From NCBI GenBank assembly GCA_902550285.1, contig CACCYQ010000005.1, positions 1-42,103 of the forward strand: DNA of 42,103 bases. The letters are read 5' to 3'. The DNA is from an uncultured Pelagibacteraceae bacterium (GTDB taxonomy: Bacteria > Pseudomonadota > Alphaproteobacteria > Pelagibacterales > Pelagibacteraceae). Under the pieces are notes generated by a model. The model worked only from the letters and a program-made list of their open reading frames with translations, made no database searches and was not told the origin of the DNA. How positions within the stretch are numbered: position 1 is the stretch's first letter; the number at the start of each line of letters is the position of its first letter. Positions 4,208 to 17,068 of the stretch are shown piece by piece. Made by a program: the position numbers and the translations under genes.

Positions 4208-4507
4208 ATGACATACAAAGTTACAGAAGAAGGCAATATCAGTACTGTTTTTTTAAATGGTGAAATTGACATGGATGTTACTGACAAAGCAAAAGAGGTT
4301 ATTCTACCAATCGTCGACTCTGGTAAAGAAGTTCACTTAAATTTAAAAGATGTACAGTATATGGACTCATCTGGAATTTCAGTTTTAATTGAAAGTCATC
4401 AAAGAGCATTAGAAAAAAATACAAAAGTAGTAATCAAAGAAGTAAGTAAATCTGTTTTAAAAGTAATTATGATGGCAAAACTTGAACAGATTCTTAACCT
4501 TGAATAA
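4208..4507 (+). CDS. STAS-domain anti-sigma factor antagonist (RsbV/SpoIIAA-like)
   Basis: 99 aa with VHLNLKDVQYMDSSGISVLIESHQRA, the canonical DSSG phosphorylation-site region. Confidence 0.9.
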   Translation: MTYKVTEEGNISTVFLNGEIDMDVTDKAKEVILPIVDSGKEVHLNLKDVQYMDSSGISVLIESHQRALEKNTKVVIKEVSKSVLKVIMMAKLEQILNLE

Positions 4508-4920
4508 TGAACCTATCAGAATCTAAAGATTTTCTTGTAAGTAGCTCAAGCTTAAAAGAGGTTAGAGTTTTTTCAAGAGATGTTTTTGAAAAAATAAATT
4601 TACCACAGGATCAAAAAGATGAGTTGGTTCTTGCAATTGCAGAGGCAGCACAAAACATTGTCAAACATGGATATAAAGGAGTAACTGAAACCACAGATAG
4701 AATGGAAATTAAAATTTCATTAAAAGATGGTGATTTAGAAATAGGTTTTTTTGATAAAGGAAAAGCAGTTGTTCCTGAAAATGTTCAACATAGAAAACTT
4801 GATGATATAAAGCCAGGTGGTTTAGGTACTTTCTTTATAAAACAAATTATGGATGCTGCTGTTTTTAAAAAAGATGAAAAAGGATGGGTTAATCATCTTA
4901 TCTTAACTAAAAAGATTTAA
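4507..4920 (+). CDS. HATPase_c anti-sigma-type serine kinase (RsbW/SpoIIAB-like)
   Basis: 137 aa. N-box-like DELVLAIAEAAQNIVKHGY and glycine motif KPGGLGTFFIKQIMD; start overlaps the STAS stop codon (TAATG). Confidence 0.88.
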   Translation: MNLSESKDFLVSSSSLKEVRVFSRDVFEKINLPQDQKDELVLAIAEAAQNIVKHGYKGVTETTDRMEIKISLKDGDLEIGFFDKGKAVVPENVQHRKLDDIKPGGLGTFFIKQIMDAAVFKKDEKGWVNHLILTKKI

Positions 4921-6167
4921 CCTATTAAAGCTCCAACATTAAATATTGGCGAATACATCGCGATCATTAATCCACCTATCATGATTCCCATAAAAACAAT
5001 CATAATTGGTTCAATCAAACTAGACATATTATCTACAGTAGTATCAAATTCTTCTTCATAATACGAAGCGACAGAGCCAAACATTTCATCTAATTGACCA
5101 GTTTGTTCCCCAACTGAAATTAGTTGGCTAAATGTTGGAGGAAACAAAGGTTCTTTTAAAAATAGTTTTGTTAAAGTATCTCCAGAAAAAACTCCTTTTT
5201 TAACATTTTCTAAAGCTTCAGTTACAACGACATTATTACTAACAGACTTTGCAATCTCTAAGCTCTCTAAAAGATTTACACCCGCTGCACTAAGATTACC
5301 TAAAATTAAAGATATTCTTGCTAACAACGACTTTAAAATCATATCCCCAAATATAGGTAGTTTTAAAACTTGTTTATGCCATTTATATTGAACTGTGGCA
5401 TTTTTAGTTGTTAAATATCTAAAAACAAAAACAAAACCAATAATTCCAAATAATAAAATCATTCCGCCAGTTCCTCTTAAAAAATCACTCATGGCCATAA
5501 TAACTGCCGTTGGTTTAGGAAGAGCTATACCCATACCATCATACATTTTAGCAAATACTGGTACCACTTTTATCAACATAAATGCGCTCACAGTAATTGC
5601 TACTGAAAACATTATTCCTGGATACATTAATGCACTTTTAATTTTCTTTTTGATTTTTTCTTTTTTCTCAAGTGCGTCAACAATTTTCAATAAAAAGACA
5701 TCTAGTTTACCGCTAGCCTCTCCGGCTTTAATTAAGTTTACGTAAACGTTGTCAAAATATTGTGGGTATTTATCAAAACATTTAGATAAAGTTACACCGC
5801 CCTCTAAACTTTTTCTAATATCTTCTATAATTTCTTTCATTCCAGGATTTTCAAGTTGGTCTCTTAACATGCTAAGAACTTCTAAAATTGGCAGACCTGC
5901 TTTTACCATTGTTGCAAATTGCTTTGAAAAGATAAGTATATCTTCTGTCTTTGGCTTCTTTTTTCCAGAAAAAAGTGAAGAAAGCCCACCACCTTTGCCC
6001 TTGGCTTTTGTCTTTTCATTACCTTTTTTTTTCTTAGATCTTGATAAATTTGTAATAATTACTTTTTGTTCTTTAAGCTTATGTGAAGCTTCGTCTTGGT
6101 TTAAAGCTTCAATATCACCCTCAACATACTTTCCCTCTGAAATGCCTTTGTATGTGAATAATTCCAT
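4917..6167 (-). CDS. pilC: type IV pilus inner-membrane platform protein PilC (GspF family)
   Basis: 416 aa. Duplicated T2SSF-type domains (ILIFSKQFATMVKAGLPILEVLSML; LARISLILGNLSAAGVNLLESLEIA) with three TM segments. Confidence 0.93.
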   Translation of the reverse strand: MELFTYKGISEGKYVEGDIEALNQDEASHKLKEQKVIITNLSRSKKKKGNEKTKAKGKGGGLSSLFSGKKKPKTEDILIFSKQFATMVKAGLPILEVLSMLRDQLENPGMKEIIEDIRKSLEGGVTLSKCFDKYPQYFDNVYVNLIKAGEASGKLDVFLLKIVDALEKKEKIKKKIKSALMYPGIMFSVAITVSAFMLIKVVPVFAKMYDGMGIALPKPTAVIMAMSDFLRGTGGMILLFGIIGFVFVFRYLTTKNATVQYKWHKQVLKLPIFGDMILKSLLARISLILGNLSAAGVNLLESLEIAKSVSNNVVVTEALENVKKGVFSGDTLTKLFLKEPLFPPTFSQLISVGEQTGQLDEMFGSVASYYEEEFDTTVDNMSSLIEPIMIVFMGIMIGGLMIAMYSPIFNVGALIG

Positions 6168-6177
6168 TATTAATTAA

Positions 6178-7932
6178 TTATGAAGATAAAACTCGCTCGT
6201 ACTCTCTAAAATTAAGATCTCCATTTGCAATCATTCTTCTTCCCATATCTTGCATGGTTTGAAAACCCTCTTTTATTGCAATTTCTTTTAATTCAGGAGT
6301 GGTAGCTTGTCTAAGTATGGCTTCTTTAATTGGTTTAGTAACTACTAAAATTTCATAAATACCTTGTCGTCCTTTGTAACCTGTGTCTTTACATTTTGGA
6401 CAACCTTTTCCTTTAATTGCTTTTACTCTTGATGCTTTTTCTGGAGTAAAACCTAAATCAGTTAAAACTTTTGGATTAACATCTTCATCTGGCACTCTAC
6501 ATTCTTTGCAATTTCTTCTTGCAAGTCTTTGTGCTAAAACCATCTGGGTTGCAGCACTAATTAAGTAATCTGGTGTTCCCATGTTTTGTAACCTGGTAAT
6601 TGTACTTGGCGCATCATTTGTGTGAAGTGTACTAAATACTAAGTGTCCAGTAAGTGCAGCTTTTAATCCAATATCAACTGTTTCCTTATCCCTCATCTCT
6701 CCTACTAAAATTATTTCTGGGTCTTGACGAAGAAAAGATCTTAGCGCTGCAGAAAAACTTAGTCCTATATCATCTTTAATTTGAACTTGTCCTACTCCAT
6801 CCAGTTCATACTCAACAGGATCTTCTGCTGTTAAAATATTTAAATGTGGTTTGCTTACTTCTTTAAGAATACTATATAAGGTTGTTGACTTTCCTGAACC
6901 TGTTGGTCCAGTAACAAGAATTAATCCTTGGGTGCTATGAATTGCTTTTCTTAAGTTTTTTAAATCTGCATCTTCAAAATTTAGCTGTTCTAAAGTTATA
7001 TCTCCTGCGTCTTTATTTAAAACCCGCATTACAATTCTTTCATTGCTGGCAGTTGGCAAAATAGACAATCGTAAATCGACAACTTTACCATCTATTTTAA
7101 AATTTATTGCACCATCTTGTGGCAATCTTCTTTCTGCAATATCTAACTTACCCATAATTTTAAAACGAGTAACTACTGCACCATAATTATCATGAAGGAA
7201 TTTTCTATACTGTTCTTGTTCTTGCAACATACCATCTAGACGATAACGAACTCTTGAAGAAAATCTGTATGGTTCAATATGGATATCACTTACGCCTGAT
7301 TTAATTGCATCAGCTACAACGGCTGTACTAAATTTTATAACTTCTGACTCATTTTCTAGTGCCTCAATATCTTCTTCTGGTGGTTTCTCAAGAACTTCGC
7401 CTGCTTCTCCTAAATCGCTATCAAAAGTTTTTGTTTTTTCTTTTGCTACATTTTCTTCTCTAATTTTTGCAGCAGTTACATCTCCGCTTTCACTCAATAA
7501 CTTTTCAATAAAATCAGAAATTTGAGAAACTTTTGCTGCATGTAATTCAATATTTTTTTTTGTAATTGCTTTTAAGTTTCTCATTAGACCAAGTTTTGAA
7601 CTATCTGAAATTGCAATATGAAGTGTTTTGCCATCTACCTTAAAAGGAGCAACAAAATTCATATTTATATAATTTGAAGGAAGTACTGTTTTTATTTCAT
7701 CGCTAATTTGGGCTTTTGTTAAATCAACAACTTCAAGATTTTGTTCCTTAACCAAAACATCTAAAATTTTATTTTCATCAGTTAACTTAAGCTCAAAGAC
7801 AGCATCTATCTGAGACTTTTTACCTTCGCTGCTTAACTTCTTTATATTGGGTAAATCTTTTCCTGATATAATGTCATGATCAATCAAGACATTAATTAAA
7901 TTTATTTCACTTTCCCTACTAATTTTAAGCAT
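6178..7932 (-). CDS. pilB: type IV pilus assembly ATPase PilB (GspE/MshE family)
   Basis: Walker A GPTGSGKSTTLYSIL, LRQDPEIILVGEMRD, tetracysteine CKEC...CPKC, N-terminal GspE_N-like domain. Confidence 0.95.
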   Translation of the reverse strand: MLKISRESEINLINVLIDHDIISGKDLPNIKKLSSEGKKSQIDAVFELKLTDENKILDVLVKEQNLEVVDLTKAQISDEIKTVLPSNYINMNFVAPFKVDGKTLHIAISDSSKLGLMRNLKAITKKNIELHAAKVSQISDFIEKLLSESGDVTAAKIREENVAKEKTKTFDSDLGEAGEVLEKPPEEDIEALENESEVIKFSTAVVADAIKSGVSDIHIEPYRFSSRVRYRLDGMLQEQEQYRKFLHDNYGAVVTRFKIMGKLDIAERRLPQDGAINFKIDGKVVDLRLSILPTASNERIVMRVLNKDAGDITLEQLNFEDADLKNLRKAIHSTQGLILVTGPTGSGKSTTLYSILKEVSKPHLNILTAEDPVEYELDGVGQVQIKDDIGLSFSAALRSFLRQDPEIILVGEMRDKETVDIGLKAALTGHLVFSTLHTNDAPSTITRLQNMGTPDYLISAATQMVLAQRLARRNCKECRVPDEDVNPKVLTDLGFTPEKASRVKAIKGKGCPKCKDTGYKGRQGIYEILVVTKPIKEAILRQATTPELKEIAIKEGFQTMQDMGRRMIANGDLNFREYERVLSS

Positions 7933-9503
7933 TATAAAATCCTTGGTGCAATAAACACTAATAGTTCATTAAGTGTATCCGAATTTTGTGTTCCTTCAAA
8001 GAGTTTTCCTATAATAGGTAATTTGCTTGCTCCGGGCACCCCTTGTCTTGAATCACTTATTGCGTTCTTTTTAATACCACCAATAACTACTATATCTCCA
8101 TCTGCTATTAAAAGCTTAGTGTTTATTTCCATTTTATTAATTCCAACTGCTCCAGGATTTGTCCTGTCTGGTGTATCATTGTTAACCTGAACTTGTAAAA
8201 GCACGTTGCCATCACCAATAATGCTTGGCGTAACTGTAAGTTTTAGAGCTGCGTCCTTAAATGTAGGAGGACTATCTCCACTACCTGCAACAGGAATTTG
8301 TACACCTTGAGTAATAGAAGCTACTTGATTATCTAAAGTAAATAATTTTGGATTAGAAATTGTTTTTCCAAGGCCTTCTGACTCTAATGCCTCTAATTGA
8401 ACTTTTAATACTGCAGAACCTGTTTTTCTTAACACTCCTATACCACTAGTTGCTCCAACAGCATTAAAACTATACAAGCTGTCTGCTGCTCCGCTACCCG
8501 CTCCACTTATTGGTGCAGTGTTTGCTGAAATACTTGCATTAGATCCAGTAGCAGCACCAACTGAACTTCCACCAACTGTACCGCCTGCTCTAGTTCCTCT
8601 TCTTGTGTATGCACCACCAAGTTTACTTCCTAATGCTTTTTCAAATGTAGAAGATGCTTCAACTATAAATGCTTCGATTAAAACTTGTTTAGTTCTAACA
8701 TCAATCTCTCTAATAACTTTATCTACAACGTCTAAATCTTTTTCTTTTCCTCTGACAATTACAGATCTTGTTGTTTTTTCTTCTGTAACTTGTATCGGTG
8801 AAAATGCTGAACCTTCTCCAACTGCAGTAAATAACTCTGTAATCGTAGCTTTTGCTTCACTTGGTGTAATATAATATAATCTAAATATTTCTGAAACAAT
8901 AGGTTCAACTGAGTTTTCAAGCTCCACTTTTTTTCTAACTGCTGTTGCTCTTGCAGATTTATAACTTTCCTGAGAAGTTAATGTTGAAGGAGAGTGCACT
9001 CTTATAATATTACTTCGAACATCAATATCTGCTGCAAAATTTTTCATATCCAATAAAGCATTAAATGCTTTATCCCATGGCACATCTGAAAGTTCCGCTG
9101 TTATTGATCCTGCAACTTCTTCACCTACTAAGATATTAACATCTCCTACTTTTGCCATTAAACCCATTGCTTCTCTATAATCTAGGTTTTGAAATTTAAA
9201 TGTAACTTTTTGTTTTAGAAGCATATATTCTTCAGGTATCAACAAATAATTTTTTTCTTTAACCGATGAAATTTGTTTTCTCTTTTTTAATTTTTTAACA
9301 TCACCTTCTATTGGCGTTGGTCCCATTTCAGCACTTTTATCAAGTTCTTTTTTTCCTAAAGCTTTTACGTCTTGTTTAATTAATGGAGTGTTGTGCTTAA
9401 ATACTTTTTTTGTTTTTTTTCCAACTTTAAGTGTTTCACAACCACTTAATAAGAAAACCAATAAAGGAAGGAGTGCTAATAATTTAAAATTTTTAAATTT
9501 CAT
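7932..9503 (-). CDS. pilQ: secretin (PilQ/MshL-like), predicted lipoprotein
   Basis: STN-like domain (VTFKFQNLDYREAMGLMAKVGDVNILVGEEVAGSITAELSDVPWDKAF), secretin core (LESEGLGKTISNPKLFTLDNQVASITQGVQIPV), lipobox LLSGC. Confidence 0.9.
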   Translation of the reverse strand: MKFKNFKLLALLPLLVFLLSGCETLKVGKKTKKVFKHNTPLIKQDVKALGKKELDKSAEMGPTPIEGDVKKLKKRKQISSVKEKNYLLIPEEYMLLKQKVTFKFQNLDYREAMGLMAKVGDVNILVGEEVAGSITAELSDVPWDKAFNALLDMKNFAADIDVRSNIIRVHSPSTLTSQESYKSARATAVRKKVELENSVEPIVSEIFRLYYITPSEAKATITELFTAVGEGSAFSPIQVTEEKTTRSVIVRGKEKDLDVVDKVIREIDVRTKQVLIEAFIVEASSTFEKALGSKLGGAYTRRGTRAGGTVGGSSVGAATGSNASISANTAPISGAGSGAADSLYSFNAVGATSGIGVLRKTGSAVLKVQLEALESEGLGKTISNPKLFTLDNQVASITQGVQIPVAGSGDSPPTFKDAALKLTVTPSIIGDGNVLLQVQVNNDTPDRTNPGAVGINKMEINTKLLIADGDIVVIGGIKKNAISDSRQGVPGASKLPIIGKLFEGTQNSDTLNELLVFIAPRIL

Positions 9504-10006
9504 TAAAATGGATCCGAAGTTTCTTTAATTTGATTTTTAAAATTAATATGTAAGTAAGAGTCAATTCCTTTTTCAAAAACAGCTTTTTCAGGTTGTAAAG
9601 CAATAAGTTTAATTCCGGGACTTAACTCTTCATTCATTTGTAATGTAATAATTTCTCCTGATGAATTTATTAATGAAACATAACTTTCATATTCTCCTGT
9701 CATTATGCCAATAAGTTTAAAATTATATAAGCTTGCTTTTTTTACATCTTCACTAGATCCAGAAACTAAAGATACTGAAGCTCCACCTTGTCCCAAAGAT
9801 TCATCTCCTGCAAATGGATCATTAAGTGGCAACGGCTCTTCAGGTGTAGCCTTAGCTTTATCAGCTTGATCTAACTTAACTTTTTGATTTATTTCTTTTG
9901 CTTTTTCTAAAATTTCTTTTTCAGTAGTGTCATGGTTATCACCAAAAACATTACTTGCTAATAATAACGATATAAAAATCAATGTTATTACTTTAAAAAA
10001 ATTCAT
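9503..10006 (-). CDS. pilP: PilP-like periplasmic pilus assembly protein
   Basis: Signal peptide; position between PilO and the secretin; C-terminal small beta domain (YNFKLIGIMTGEYESYVSLINSSGEIITLQMNEEL). Confidence 0.7.
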   Translation of the reverse strand: MNFFKVITLIFISLLLASNVFGDNHDTTEKEILEKAKEINQKVKLDQADKAKATPEEPLPLNDPFAGDESLGQGGASVSLVSGSSEDVKKASLYNFKLIGIMTGEYESYVSLINSSGEIITLQMNEELSPGIKLIALQPEKAVFEKGIDSYLHINFKNQIKETSDPF

Positions 10007-10655
10007 CTGTAAGCCCCACTATAGTTAAAATTCCTGTAACTCTTATCGCTCCAGTTGAATCTCCTTGTATCACTGAGATAGACTCTTTGTCAAAGTTTAA
10101 CATCTTATTAGATAGCGATAATGCTCTTTTAAACTTTATATAACCTAAAAAATTTCCATTTATCTCAAAAGTGACGGGTATCGTATAATAGGCAACATCT
10201 TTCTTTTTAGTTACTTTTTGGTTTTCTGCTTTTTTGCCTGATGCTTTAGCTAATGCGGCAGCTTTGCTAACTTGTTTGATATCCTTTTTTTCAATTTTAG
10301 AAATAACCAATCCATTTATTCCAGCATAATAGCTTAATGTTTCGTATAAACCTTCAACCTCGGCTCTTGAATGAAATAAGGTAGAATAATTTTCATACCT
10401 AGGTGTAAGTTTTTTAATTTTTGCTTTTTTCGCATTTATACCATTGATGAATTGAGTGGTCTCTTCCTCCATCTTGTTCATCTCTGATAACTTTAATTTC
10501 TTTTTATTAACAATGGGATTCAAAATTGCATAATATATAATTAAAAAAAATAATACTGCTCCTACGGATATTCCAATTTTAATTAAAGTTTTTTTGTCCG
10601 CATATTGCAAAATTAAGGGTTTTAAATCTTCAATTTTTAAATTTTTTAAATCCAT
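9993..10655 (-). CDS. pilO: PilO-like pilus assembly protein
   Basis: Single N-terminal TM, coiled coil, C-terminal ferredoxin-like region (YYTIPVTFEINGNFLGYIKFKRALSL); gene order. Confidence 0.8.
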   Translation of the reverse strand: MDLKNLKIEDLKPLILQYADKKTLIKIGISVGAVLFFLIIYYAILNPIVNKKKLKLSEMNKMEEETTQFINGINAKKAKIKKLTPRYENYSTLFHSRAEVEGLYETLSYYAGINGLVISKIEKKDIKQVSKAAALAKASGKKAENQKVTKKKDVAYYTIPVTFEINGNFLGYIKFKRALSLSNKMLNFDKESISVIQGDSTGAIRVTGILTIVGLTDEFF

Positions 10656-10657
10656 TT

Positions 10658-13048
10658 TTATCCTTTTGTATTAGGGTCTATTTTTACAAAAACCCTAAAA
10701 CCTTTCATTGATACTGTTCCTGATTTATATGTTGGTAGTTTCATAGAAGATAAAGAAGCTTGTGCGATTAAATTTTGCTTTCCTAGGTTTTCAATAAATT
10801 TTAATATGTCTTGATCGCTTGCTGCAATTCCCTGAATAACAACATTTCTTTTCCCATTATAATCTACTTTGTTAAACTTTACTCTTTTTGGAACACTAGA
10901 TGCTATTTGTGCTAGTATCCTATAACTAAGATCTTTATTAGATGTTAGGCTATTACTTAGTTTTAAGGCTGTAGTTATTATTTTTAATTCTTTACTTATT
11001 TTTTGGTCTTCTTTGGTTTTTTGTGCGTGTACTAACTGTATTTGATCAAAGTTTTCCAATTGTTTATTATATGAATGAATATTCCAAAAAGATAAACCAA
11101 ACAAAATCAAATACAATGCAGCTATTCCTCCAGCTACTCCTTTAAATGCAAAATTTGAAATTGCTTTCATTTTCTTTTTCTTAAACATTCCTTGTCTATC
11201 AGGAAGTAAGTTTATATTTTTTACTGCTGTGACAAATTTGTAATAACCAAATACATCAAGTTTTCTAAACGCAAGTCCAACTACTGTAGAAAGATATGAT
11301 CTGTTAGGTATGTTTATTCTTTCTTCAATTTGCTGCGGAATTTTTAGACCATCGATAGGGTCAAAAGGAGTAAAACCAATATTTACTAAATTTTTTCTAA
11401 ATTGCGATAAATAGTTGTCTAAATTATTTAGATCAGAAACGACTTTAATATTTCTTATTCTTTTTTCATATTTAGTTTCAAAATCTTGAACAGCTTGTTT
11501 TACTTGAGTAGTGTATCTTCTAACTAAACCTTCAATCTCTTCCTGATTTTGTGAATCAAATAATATTTTTCTATCCTGGCCTCTTAAAAAAATATCAGTA
11601 ATTATTGGGTTATTATCATATAATATCATTAAATAATTTTCATCCAATCCAAACTCTAGTACAGCTGTTAAATTTGCATCTTCAGCCTTTTTTGAAATTT
11701 GGTTAATTTGGTCTACAGCAGATTTTAATGCAAAACATTTTACATCAATAATAACTGGATTAAGTCCACCTGATTTAATTATTGAAGTATAACTGTTTAT
11801 ATCTGAAAGTTTTGAAGCAACGAATAATATATCCATAGTGTTGTCTTTTTGGTTTCTATTTATCACTTGGTGAAATATAGAATAGTCATCAAGATTATCT
11901 GTTAATTGAACTAAGTTTTCCCAAAGAGAATTTGTTTCAATTGCTTTTTGTAACTCTTCTTCTTTCATCAAAGGAGCTGTTACCACTCTTATAATTGCAC
12001 TAGTTACTGGAATTGCGATTGCAGCATTTGGTGTTTTAATTTTTGCTTTTTGCAAAGCAACTGATAACTCTCCTCCTAATCTTTCTGCATTATCCAATAC
12101 TGTTGCATCTACAGGCAAATCTACTTTGTGTATAAAAAAGTTTTCTAAAACCCATTGGTTTGCTTTGTTGCTTGAAATTTGTGACAATCTTATTTCTTTG
12201 TTTGTAATTTCTACTCCTACAATTTCTTCTCCTTGTGCAGTTGATTTTCCTAATCTTGATTTAAAAAACCCTTCTAGCTTACCTTTAAAATCAATTTTGC
12301 CTTTTGCAGATATGTTTGCTGCTTTATCTCCACCGCCAAATGACGGTTTTTTAAATTTAAAAGCTTTTAGTTTATTGAGCATTCCACCCATTACATTTTT
12401 TGGCTCTTCAGTTTTAGTTTCTTCTATTGGTGCGGTTACCGTTTTTACTGCAACTGCTTCAGATGTTTTTTCAATAGGAGACGCTTCTGCTACTGGAGGA
12501 GTCGAAGTAACCGGAGGTGTAACTTGTTCTTGTGAAGCAGACGATTGTTCACTTGTGCTAACTTGAGTGTCTTCTGGTACTGTTTCCTCTTTTCCTTTGT
12601 TCGACTGAACATCATCAAACCATTTTTCTAAAATAGGTATTGCTTCTTCAAGATTAGGTGTTCCTGATGAAGAAATTTTTTGTTTTCCATCAATATAAAG
12701 TCTTCCTACCCAATTTTTTGATTTTAATTCACCTTTATACTTATCCTGCCTTACATATATGTGTAATCTTCCATCTTTTTTATGAATTACCTCGTGTTCT
12801 TTCTTATCTTCTGTTTTAGTTTCCAAATTTTCAGAAGTTTCTGTACTGGGCTGTTCAGAAGATGTTGGAGCTACATCATTGGCTTGAATATTTTCACTTT
12901 CAGGTTGTTTTTCATCCTGACTTTGATTTTCTTGAGCATTGTCATCAACAGAAGTATCATCAGCAGGTGCATTTACACCCTCTGATTGATTTTCTTCTGT
13001 TTTAAACTCTTCCTCTTTATTTATATCTTTGTTATCTTCATCGCTCAT
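10658..13048 (-). CDS. PilM-PilN fusion protein with N-terminal acidic/extra domain
   Basis: 796 aa. PilM-like actin-fold region (EIVGVEITNKEIRLSQIS...AIAIPVTSAIIRVV...) followed by TM and PilN-like region (LAQIASSVPKRVKFNKVDYNGKRNVVIQGIAASDQDILKFIENLG). No stand-alone PilM or PilN in the operon. Confidence 0.8.
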   Translation of the reverse strand: MSDEDNKDINKEEEFKTEENQSEGVNAPADDTSVDDNAQENQSQDEKQPESENIQANDVAPTSSEQPSTETSENLETKTEDKKEHEVIHKKDGRLHIYVRQDKYKGELKSKNWVGRLYIDGKQKISSSGTPNLEEAIPILEKWFDDVQSNKGKEETVPEDTQVSTSEQSSASQEQVTPPVTSTPPVAEASPIEKTSEAVAVKTVTAPIEETKTEEPKNVMGGMLNKLKAFKFKKPSFGGGDKAANISAKGKIDFKGKLEGFFKSRLGKSTAQGEEIVGVEITNKEIRLSQISSNKANQWVLENFFIHKVDLPVDATVLDNAERLGGELSVALQKAKIKTPNAAIAIPVTSAIIRVVTAPLMKEEELQKAIETNSLWENLVQLTDNLDDYSIFHQVINRNQKDNTMDILFVASKLSDINSYTSIIKSGGLNPVIIDVKCFALKSAVDQINQISKKAEDANLTAVLEFGLDENYLMILYDNNPIITDIFLRGQDRKILFDSQNQEEIEGLVRRYTTQVKQAVQDFETKYEKRIRNIKVVSDLNNLDNYLSQFRKNLVNIGFTPFDPIDGLKIPQQIEERINIPNRSYLSTVVGLAFRKLDVFGYYKFVTAVKNINLLPDRQGMFKKKKMKAISNFAFKGVAGGIAALYLILFGLSFWNIHSYNKQLENFDQIQLVHAQKTKEDQKISKELKIITTALKLSNSLTSNKDLSYRILAQIASSVPKRVKFNKVDYNGKRNVVIQGIAASDQDILKFIENLGKQNLIAQASLSSMKLPTYKSGTVSMKGFRVFVKIDPNTKG

Positions 13049-13066
13049 AAGTATTTTTTTTTATTT

Positions 13067-13412
13067 CTCTAACACAAACTTACGAATCTCTAACACAAAT
13101 TTTAAAAAAGTCTAACACAAAATCTATAGTTGTGTGCTCACATTGGGTCAAAATAAATAAAAATTGTAAAAAAGTCAATAAAATCAACACTTATTTCAAT
13201 TTATTGAAATTGTAAAAAAAAAACAAAATAATTAAAATTTTTCTTAAACTCTAACACAAATAAGAAAAACTCTAACACAATTCAATTTTTAAATTTGTGT
13301 TAGAGTAAAAAAAAAAATAAAAAAATTAAAAAAGCTAATAAAATCAACGTTTTTCCATTTTTCAATTCAAAGTTTATTTTTTGTGTTAGAGTAATTATTT
13401 TTTGTGTTAGAG
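13067..13412. repeat. Array of 8 copies of CTCTAACACAAA in both orientations
   Basis: Forward copies at 13067-13078, 13088-13099, 13110-13121 (1 mismatch), 13249-13260, 13270-13281 (1 mismatch). Reverse copies (TTTGTGTTAGAG) at 13294-13305, 13380-13391, 13401-13412. Adjacent same-strand copies start 21-22 bp apart. Confidence 0.95.
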
Positions 13413-13582
13413 TATCTAATTAATGCTAAATTTATTTTTTATATAAATTTAATTTACAAATTTAGTTATTAAAATTTGAAAAAAACTATTGGTTGTACTG
13501 AAATTTTATAAATTTTTAACTATTTTTTTATAATTTTACAATTTTTAATAGAATTTTAAATAAAAAAACTTTTTTTACATAA

Positions 13583-14812
13583 TTAAACATTTTTTACACT
13601 CATCATTAATAAAAAACCCAAAAAGAAAAATATTGAGATAGATAGCAGACCAACTCTTTGTGAAAACATATATGTCATGGTTCCAACTAGTAACGGTCCA
13701 GCAAAAGCAGTAATGCGGCCGGAGAAACTAAAAAGACCAAACCCTTTTCCTAAATCATTTGTTTCTAATAATTTTGTCATCATAACACGACTAGCGCTTT
13801 GTATTGATCCTATAAACAATGAAATTACCATAACGTTATAAAAAAATTCACTTTTTGTTTCAGCAATCATTGATCCATAAAAAACTGTTAAAGTTAATAC
13901 AGCAATACAAACTAAAATAATATTTTTAGAAGAATATTTATCATTTAAATATCCTCCTATCATTACTCCGATGAATGCAACTATGTTAGCAACTATTGCA
14001 AGTTTTAATAATTCACCTGAAGTATAATTAAAAACTCCTGAAGCATAAACACCACCGCCAGCAATTAAAACTATTAGTGCATCGGAGTATATCATTCTTG
14101 CTAAAAGAAATTTACCTGTAGTAGTAAATTTATTTTTCCAAATAATTTCAATAATTTTTTTTGATGTTGGTGTTTCATCTACATTATCGTCATAAGAAAT
14201 TTTATTTTTAAAATAATATATCATTGGTAATGAAAAAATTAAAAACCAAATTGCAACAATGAAAGGAATGAATCTTATATTTTCAAAATTACTTTTATCT
14301 AACCCGAAAGGAACTTGTTCTGGCAATACAAATAAATATAAAGAAATTAAAATCATTGGAACACATCCAATGTAACCTAATGCAAAACCAAAACCAGAAG
14401 TTTTTCCAATATTATTTTCATCAGAACATTTTTTTAATAAAGAATTATAAAAAATTGATGCGGCTTCATAAAAATAGTTTGAAATAAAAAAAATAAATAA
14501 AGTATATAAAATATAATTTGAATTTGGTTTTGCAAACCAAAACAAACAAGTTGTTATAATACAAAGTAAAGTAAATTTTTCTAAATAATTTACTTTACCT
14601 TTTGGTTTTTTGTCCGCCATTGCACCAAGGTACGGTCCTGATAATGCAATTGCAATTCCACAAGCACCTGCTGTCCACTGCCAATAAGCTGCACCTATTT
14701 GTGGATCACCTACTATTTGTTTTGCAAAGTACGCTGAAGTAATAAATGTAATTATAATAATGCTGTAGGCTGAGTTTGCCAAATCATATAACGCATAAAA
14801 TAATTTATTCAT
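13583..14812 (-). CDS. MFS transporter, UMF1/Atg22-like
   Basis: ~12 TM segments; N-term FYALYDLANSAYSIIIITFITSAYF typical of the UMF1 family. Confidence 0.85.
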   Translation of the reverse strand: MNKLFYALYDLANSAYSIIIITFITSAYFAKQIVGDPQIGAAYWQWTAGACGIAIALSGPYLGAMADKKPKGKVNYLEKFTLLCIITTCLFWFAKPNSNYILYTLFIFFISNYFYEAASIFYNSLLKKCSDENNIGKTSGFGFALGYIGCVPMILISLYLFVLPEQVPFGLDKSNFENIRFIPFIVAIWFLIFSLPMIYYFKNKISYDDNVDETPTSKKIIEIIWKNKFTTTGKFLLARMIYSDALIVLIAGGGVYASGVFNYTSGELLKLAIVANIVAFIGVMIGGYLNDKYSSKNIILVCIAVLTLTVFYGSMIAETKSEFFYNVMVISLFIGSIQSASRVMMTKLLETNDLGKGFGLFSFSGRITAFAGPLLVGTMTYMFSQRVGLLSISIFFFLGFLLMMSVKNV

Positions 14813-15357
14813 TAAAGTTTATCCATTTCTAATAATTTTTGTAACGCACCACTATTTTTCCATTTTTTAATCAAAACACTAATGTCTGTAGTTGTTTGAG
14901 TAACAAACTCTTTATAAATTGATTTATAGCTTGGTCCTAATTTAATTCCCTCTGTTGAATTAAATTGTAAAATTCCTATCTTGCATAACTGTAATACTTT
15001 TCTTCTTACTGTTTCTCTAGGAAGCTGTAGAACTTCTGCAATACTTGCAAATGTTAATTTTCTGTTTTTATTATTCTCTCTTATATTTGATATTTCATAT
15101 TCAACTTCTGAATAAGTTTTTGAGCCTGTTTTGTTTAGCTCATAAAGATTGTGGCTAACCACTACCTGAAGTATCACAAACGATTCTATATCCATTTTTA
15201 ATGTGCTTCTTACTCTAGAATAAAAATCAATCACAAACATTATCCAATGATAAAGTCCTTTAGAAAAAATTGGCTCCCCTTTTGCAGTTTCATTTGAAAT
15301 TTTTTCAAATGAAATCACTGTACTTGCATCACTCATTTTAGTTTTATTGCTACTCAT
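14812..15357 (-). CDS. winged-helix/HTH transcriptional regulator
   Basis: C-terminal LTFASIAEVLQLPRETVRRKVLQLCKIGILQFN is a wHTH. The track start at 15414 is TTG; ATG at 15357 (MSSNKTK) is the likelier start. Confidence 0.7.
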   Translation of the reverse strand: MSSNKTKMSDASTVISFEKISNETAKGEPIFSKGLYHWIMFVIDFYSRVRSTLKMDIESFVILQVVVSHNLYELNKTGSKTYSEVEYEISNIRENNKNRKLTFASIAEVLQLPRETVRRKVLQLCKIGILQFNSTEGIKLGPSYKSIYKEFVTQTTTDISVLIKKWKNSGALQKLLEMDKL

Positions 15358-15483
15358 TGTAGGTAAATTTTCCCCTGTATTAGTTACTCTACAACCTATA
15401 TTAGGCAGAATCAACCTTTTACACCAATATAGGTTTTTAAACCATATTAGTAAAAAATTTATGAAAAATAATTAGTTTTTTTA

Positions 15484-15787: not shown

Positions 15788-17068
15788 TTATTTTCCGTCT
15801 ATTACAACAACTGTTAAATCATCTTTCTGAATTTTTCCTGATTTAACTATGTCTTCAACAATAGCTTTAAGTCTTTCATTGTTTGGTGTTGATTGATATT
15901 TTTTAATATAGTTTTGAAAACCTTCTGCACCAAGCATTTCACCATTTGGATCTTTAATCTCTGTTATTCCATCTGTAAAAATATACATTGAGCTTTCTTT
16001 AAAAGGTATTGTTGTTTCTTTGTATTTTATTTTAGACATTATACCTAATGGTGGGCCTGCTTCAGAATAATTAGAAAATTTTCCATCTCTTGAATAAATT
16101 AATGGTGGTTCGTGTCCTGCGTTTGCAAGTAACAATTCTTTTTTGTTACTGTCATAAATCCCAATAAGCATTGTAACAAACATTCCGCGTGCAGCTGTTT
16201 CACATATTTCTGTATTTAATAAGTTTAATAGTTCTGCGGCAGAAAACATTGTTTTGCTTAAACATCTATAAAGACTAGAAGCTTTTGACATAAGTAATGA
16301 TGATTTAATTCCTTTTCCTGATACGTCTGCAACTCCAAACCCAAATCTTCCATCGCCTAGGTCTGAAAAATTATAAAAGTCTCCAGACACTACCTTTGCT
16401 GGAATATTTATTCCTGAAATAGGAAAAGGATCTTTTTTATTTTGTGAAAGCAAAGTTTTTTGAATTTCACCAACTATTTCTATTTCTTTTTGCATTCTAT
16501 TTTTATCAACAAGTTCTTTAGCCATTCGTGCATTTCTAATCGCTAGAGCAGCTGGTGCTGAAAGAGTTTCTAAAAGTTTTCTATCACTTTCTTCAAAAAG
16601 TTTATTTGTTGTTTTTTTATTTAAGCAGTGAATTACACCAATACATTCATTTGCTGCTATAAGAGGTGCGCATAAAACAGAGTATGTTGTAAAATTTGTT
16701 TTATTATCCAAATCAAAATAAAATTCGGCAATTTCTCTTACATCTTTTCTAACATCTCCCACCCTAATACATTTCTTTTGTAATACTGCCTTACCCATTA
16801 CACCTTGGGTTAAAGGTATTTCATATTCATCTAAGTAAGCTTGATGCTTTGACGCTATGCATTGAAAAACTTGTTTTTTTTCTTCAATTAAAAAAATATT
16901 TGCTGCTTGAGCATTAATTCTTTTGATTATTACTTCTAAGGCATTTTGAAGTGTTTCGTTTAAATCAAGAGTTGTTGCTAAGTCTTGATTCATTTGAGTA
17001 ATTATTTTTAAGTCTTGTATTCTTGAATCTTCTTTTACTGGTTCGGCTTTTTTTGATTTAAAAAACAT
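15788..17068 (-). CDS. GAF-domain SpoIIE/RsbU-like PP2C serine phosphatase
   Basis: GAF-like N-terminus; SGDFYNFSDLGDGRFGFGVADVSGKGIKSSLLMSKA, YIFTDGITEIKD, DDLTVVVID. Confidence 0.92.
   Translation of the reverse strand: MFFKSKKAEPVKEDSRIQDLKIITQMNQDLATTLDLNETLQNALEVIIKRINAQAANIFLIEEKKQVFQCIASKHQAYLDEYEIPLTQGVMGKAVLQKKCIRVGDVRKDVREIAEFYFDLDNKTNFTTYSVLCAPLIAANECIGVIHCLNKKTTNKLFEESDRKLLETLSAPAALAIRNARMAKELVDKNRMQKEIEIVGEIQKTLLSQNKKDPFPISGINIPAKVVSGDFYNFSDLGDGRFGFGVADVSGKGIKSSLLMSKASSLYRCLSKTMFSAAELLNLLNTEICETAARGMFVTMLIGIYDSNKKELLLANAGHEPPLIYSRDGKFSNYSEAGPPLGIMSKIKYKETTIPFKESSMYIFTDGITEIKDPNGEMLGAEGFQNYIKKYQSTPNNERLKAIVEDIVKSGKIQKDDLTVVVIDGK

Follow-up and report, generated by a model that had tools for sequence, protein, structure and literature searches.

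Upstream of the type IV pilus operon in a 42,103-nucleotide stretch of SAR11 DNA (called the window below, always at its full length), eight near-identical 12-mers form a helically phased array. We consider it probable, from sequence comparisons, that these 12-mers are the sites of a small domain of PilMN, the PilM–PilN fusion protein encoded by the first gene of the same operon, and that PilMN, tethered to the membrane, would loop its own promoter and most likely repress it when present in excess. We strongly infer that the domain, at residues ~86–150, physically binds the eight sites; the looping, the repressive sign and the trigger we infer. The source organism belongs to the Pelagibacteraceae, as indicated by named records of related contigs, and SAR11 bacteria are among the most abundant cells of the ocean and possess few regulators. 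Our reading suggests that a surface machine of SAR11 regulates itself via a structural subunit with an integrase-related DNA-binding domain. If true, this would be a new route from mobile-element parts to regulators. The reading also names a binder and a site, CTCTAACACAA, both open to direct testing, and would explain a puzzling intergenic array of high conservation.

The array, its operon and a predicted promoter

A motif scan of the window with CTCTAACACAAA, allowing at most one mismatch, returned eight copies at 13067–13412, six of them exact. All eight lie where the first-pass annotation had placed them, five forward and three reverse within 346 bp, and the same-strand spacings of 21, 22, 21 and 21 bp were also read correctly. 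The proximal trio is on the forward strand: site 1 (13067–13078, exact) is the closest to the pilMN ATG, at 18 bp, and lies at about -30 from the ATG in relatives; site 2 (13088–13099, exact) lies at about -51 in relatives; and site 3 (13110–13121, G in first place) overlaps the predicted transcription start and is abutted by a promoter-like element. The five distal sites, upstream of the promoter, begin with site 4 (13249–13260, exact) and site 5 (13270–13281, T in last place) on the forward strand. They continue in the opposite orientation with the exact sites 6 (13294–13305, 24 bp from site 5), 7 (13380–13391) and 8 (13401–13412), the 86 bp (eight turns) between sites 6 and 7 being a conserved spacing. 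The two inexact copies, sites 3 and 5, thus each deviate by a single mismatch at a terminal position.

The rest of the window contains 58 further matches to the 12-mer, every one with two or three mismatches, and the total of 66 matches with zero to three mismatches compares with 69 expected by chance, in keeping with the earlier remark that no other full copy was seen. The 11-mer core TCTAACACAAA has seven copies in the whole assembly (877 kb, 44 contigs, 67% complete), all seven inside the array, and a control reading the core backwards has none. A DNA uptake sequence was rejected, since the exact core copies sit in one array and are not dispersed. We also rejected an oriC or iteron reading: the array always accompanies pil genes, and no replication gene was found among the neighbours checked. 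The surroundings are AT-rich, as had been noted (GC 0.22 over 13001–14000), and the array is flanked by the start of pilMN (10658–13048, minus strand) and the 3' end of an MFS-type gene (13583–14812, minus strand).

The first gene downstream of the array, pilMN, encodes 796 aa with Pfam matches to PilM_2 (1.6e-17) and PilN (2.4e-8). Both domains and the place in a pil operon identify its product as a type IV pilus PilM–PilN platform protein. The remaining operon genes (4917–10655, minus strand) were assigned from Pfam matches and gene order. Two genes between pilMN and the secretin have no Pfam match and are PilO/PilP-like by position, followed by the Pfam-matched genes for the secretin (7932–9503), a PilB-type ATPase (6178–7932) and PilC (4917–6167), all on the minus strand. 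Further along, there are genes for a prepilin peptidase, PilY1 and a PilT-like ATPase with pilin-like genes.

The array upstream of the pilMN fusion gene is conserved across Pelagibacteraceae, and clusters of the same motif word are present in other genera of the family, always adjoining pil genes. The first-pass annotation had proposed a search genome-wide and in relatives; such a search showed that the motif is not scattered and that it is conserved upstream of pilM homologues. Stray single copies of the 11-mer in some relatives (three in G051, for instance) are about as frequent as those of the backwards control. In gene orientation, the sites are usually laid out as F-21-F-86-F-24-R-21-R-~130-R-22-R-21-R-ATG, and in two genomes (G013 and G056) the array sits between divergent pilMN and PilT-like operons. 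Over 391 sites from 57 dereplicated arrays, conservation reaches 96% or more at motif positions 2–11, and the flanking DNA is unconstrained. We also observed enlarged arrays, apparently duplicated, at L044/L082, L067 and L077, with up to 14 sites and reaching ~890 bp upstream of pilMN.

Site spacings follow a period of 10.7 bp with a resultant of 0.85 (570 pairs); this and the figures that follow are to be read with the shared ancestry of the arrays in mind, which makes them other than independent trials. With the period taken from the 20–23 bp spacings only, the long gaps measure 8.03, 10.92, 11.98, 12.99 and 13.93 turns, and one class of 8.6 turns, present in two loci, is out of phase. The resultant is 0.80 over all 93 long gaps, and p = 0.04 once their lengths are merged into classes. 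Gap lengths between sub-arrays differ mostly by whole turns, and the forward–reverse offset is conserved at 24/25 or 34/35 bp, one turn apart. Such whole-turn spacing, conserved in relatives, is that of a helically phased operator array, as the earlier reading had it, and it suggests that binding would be cooperative.

A promoter can be predicted within this layout from the family alignment and an offset scan. Across 43 loci, a -10-like hexamer shows a sharp peak directly before the third proximal site; 16 of the 43 also have a -35-like hexamer 16–18 bp away with at least four of six positions matching in both elements, and other offsets yield at most five. The corresponding window elements are TTGACC at 13146–13151 and TATAGA at 13123–13128, both on the minus strand and separated by a spacer of 17; the latter ends 1 bp before site 3, which puts the predicted transcription start near 13116, within that site. 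A simple consensus promoter scanner did not list the window element because its rules are stricter, so that for the window itself the promoter is predicted from the family. The region between the predicted hexamers (13129–13151 in the window, e.g., CCAAAATGAGCATACAAC) is itself conserved across loci and might be bound by a second regulator.

A domain shared by PilMN and two integrases

Residues ~86–150 of PilMN (12599–12793, minus strand) form a separate domain between two long, variable, disordered-looking linkers. No other part of the protein is as conserved: mean pairwise identity is 90% in the domain, 79% in PilM, 61% in PilN and 20–26% in the flanking linkers. Integrase homology, conservation and a structure model together make it a candidate integrase-arm-type DNA-binding domain. 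The AlphaFold model contains four strands and a helix (pLDDT 77). A hydrophobic stretch near residue 637 is expected to be the PilN membrane anchor, and the domain would then be cytoplasmic. Searched against Pfam, the domain matched no family at E ≤ 10, the Pfam arm/AP2 integrase models included; PDB sequences gave no meaningful match, and Foldseek with the model (PDB, BFVD) gave none at E ≤ 0.001. We know of no DNA-binding domain on PilM, and a literature search of partial coverage returned no description of such a domain or of pilus regulation in SAR11.

Profile searches of 349 genomes of the genus and 348 of the order (overlapping sets) gave strong domain matches outside PilMN in only two proteins, both of integrase size, from G218 and G912. 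Both have Phage_integrase matches, and the homology lies at their N-termini, so the PilMN domain is homologous to the N-terminal part of these tyrosine recombinases; the G218 integrase aligns with PilMN over 63 aa at 62% identity (E 5.6e-20). Identity to the domain falls to 35% in G393, in an integrase of another family, with E 6.9e-5, a range that also holds false matches. Weak profile matches in G189, G802 and G981 (antisense of an rpoB-like gene) and in G1014 (a histidine-kinase-like ORF) were discarded as chance after reading.

Both integrase genes adjoin tRNA-Leu(caa), and their attachment regions contain arm-type sites, CTCTTACACAA, near-identical to those of the array. In the whole G912 genome, CTCTWACACAA occurs 10 times, six copies being at the pil array (A form) and four within 5 kb of the integrase (T form). 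G218 has three exact sites, two of them close to the integrase and one away from it, and G035 and G043, whose PilMN has no domain, contain no copy. Paired CTCTTACACAA-type sites in G912 flank three copies of the tRNA-Leu anticodon-loop segment TTTTGAGT, and the arrangement in G218 is similar. The anticodon-loop repeats are crossover-like with paired sites near each, and a 24-bp paired-site unit recurs exactly at 4784 and 9701 of the G912 contig L246. Cognate sites thus flank the attachment region, and the paired sites around the G912 integrase look like arm-type sites.

The gene pilMN and the integrase gene are otherwise unrelated and share only the domain, and each is accompanied by the same site class; such a distribution indicates that the domain binds the motif. 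We regard this shared site class as the strongest evidence for the putative binding; it comes from one element type in two genomes. The direction of transfer was presumably from integrase to PilMN, because such domains occur generally in integrases. A phage origin was set aside, as neither the integrase nor the domain had relatives in our scans of the phage collection and IMG/VR. The first-pass annotation had offered a transposase-type multi-site end as an alternative, and this is right in part as regards ancestry, in that the array sites correspond to those of the arm type at a related tyrosine integrase. The surrounding regions (L246:4690–9800 in G912 and L190:4700–9900 in G218) have the form of an integrative element at tRNA-Leu with a tyrosine integrase and a serine resolvase; its three anticodon-loop repeats appear as if two units stood in tandem.

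Joint distribution of domain and array

Of the loci with 110 bp or more of upstream sequence, 76 have both the domain and the array, 14 have neither (five of these being distant PilM-like proteins of 23–25% identity) and a single locus, L163, has the domain without the array. Within positions 1–500 of L163, the contig end joins an inverted SpoIIE-type reading frame to pilMN; this end is therefore probably chimeric, a single-cell amplification chimera. Apparent domain losses at L086 and L097 were dismissed as contig-edge truncations.

In a tree of the PilMN core, the members without the domain fall into a single clade within the genus, plus G059 (g5) from another genus. Nested inside the domain-less clade is the domain-bearing L076, in which the array is present again. 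No alternative upstream repeat was found at the domain-less pilMN loci. Independent switches of domain and array are few (about three), and since the two adjoin, a single recombination could swap both; co-occurrence taken alone is therefore weak evidence. The SAR11 clade of L087–L093 has a PilMN of ~570 aa with neither domain nor array and represents a natural set of control strains.

Proposed autoregulation and other readings

Under the proposed mechanism, the inner-membrane/cytoplasmic platform protein PilMN, whose own gene is preceded by the array, would hold its domain in the cytoplasm, between linkers and beside the membrane-anchored PilN part. PilMN would bind in several copies, cooperatively and along one face of the DNA. 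The proximal trio (13067–13121) would cover the predicted transcription start and the 5' leader, and the distal five (13249–13412) would sit upstream of the promoter, so that PilMN bridging the two groups would loop the DNA across it. Free PilMN in excess would then lower transcription, a negative autoregulation by the abundance or assembly state of the machine. One could go further and suppose that the pilus platform holds its own operon, PilMN clamping the eight phased sites and thereby coupling pilus assembly, promoter looping and where in the cell the locus lies; we regard this extension as doubtful.

A related possibility is that the array chiefly tethers or positions the DNA of the pil operon at the membrane-bound platform, transcription control being secondary. 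Its binder would belong to a membrane-anchored machine, eight sites of opposed orientation over 346 bp would suit a multivalent anchor, and the linkers are long and variable. Yet the proximal sites extend over the predicted promoter start, an indication of transcription control, and there is one locus per genome, so that we hold tethering as the main function to be rather unlikely. As to the sign of regulation, PilMN might be recruited by the distal sites as an upstream activator or enhancer, given the phased distances at which five sites precede the promoter; but with site 3 directly next to the -10 element and three sites downstream of that element, the arrangement is the one that repression would predict, and activation seems to us unlikely.

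Binding by a separate transcription factor, with the PilMN domain acting otherwise, would be quite surprising. The first-pass annotation had pointed to a nearby wHTH protein, whose gene (14812–15414) lies two genes upstream and gives weak HTH matches, and helically phased operators are indeed typical of classical regulators. However, the wHTH is absent from three array-bearing genomes, namely G051 (99% complete, with a full array), G247 and G056, and is only weakly matched in several others. Any separate factor, unlinked ones included, would also leave unexplained both the tracking of the array by the domain and the near-identical motif at an integrase that bears the domain. It is hardly credible that the array is a non-functional fossil, left from the attachment region of the element that donated the domain. 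The motif does coincide with the class of arm-type sites found at the related integrase, but a fossil would scarcely keep the conserved motif positions between unconstrained flanks described above, nor the spacings in helical phase.

The preferred reading, autoregulation by PilMN, has partial counterparts in known systems. In tyrosine integrases of the lambda Int and Tn916 Int class, arm-type sites are bound by an N-terminal arm-binding domain. The PilMN domain is likewise short (~65 aa, modelled as strands and one helix), lies at or near the N-terminus, faces tandem sites ~11 or 21 bp apart and is homologous to two SAR11 integrases whose own sites match. Unlike the integrases, PilMN has no catalytic recombinase domain, its only matches being PilM_2 and PilN, and its sites are at a promoter and not at an attachment site; unlike the known arm domains, its domain has no match in Pfam or among solved structures. 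The "trigger" autoregulator PutA is a membrane-associated enzyme with a ribbon-helix-helix domain and several sites in its own promoter region. PilMN would resemble it as a membrane-associated functional protein with a candidate DNA-binding domain for several sites at its own promoter, differing in that it is a structural component of the pilus and that its domain is integrase-like. The AP2/ERF transcription factors derive from mobile-element DNA-binding domains, and PilMN would be a similar reuse for gene regulation, although in a different lineage, fused to a pilus machine protein and with no Pfam match to AP2.

PilS/PilR is a two-component system that senses pilin and acts via separate regulators. 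Feedback between pilus state and pil expression would be common to it, to other regulation of type IV pili and to PilMN, although PilMN is not a classical pil regulator. Finally, we would like to mention a partner-switching set within the type IV pilus locus, consisting of a STAS protein, a HATPase_c_2 anti-sigma-type kinase and a GAF-SpoIIE phosphatase (4208–4920 and 15788–17068 in the window); it recurs at the type IV pilus locus in relatives and may be a signal input to pilus control.
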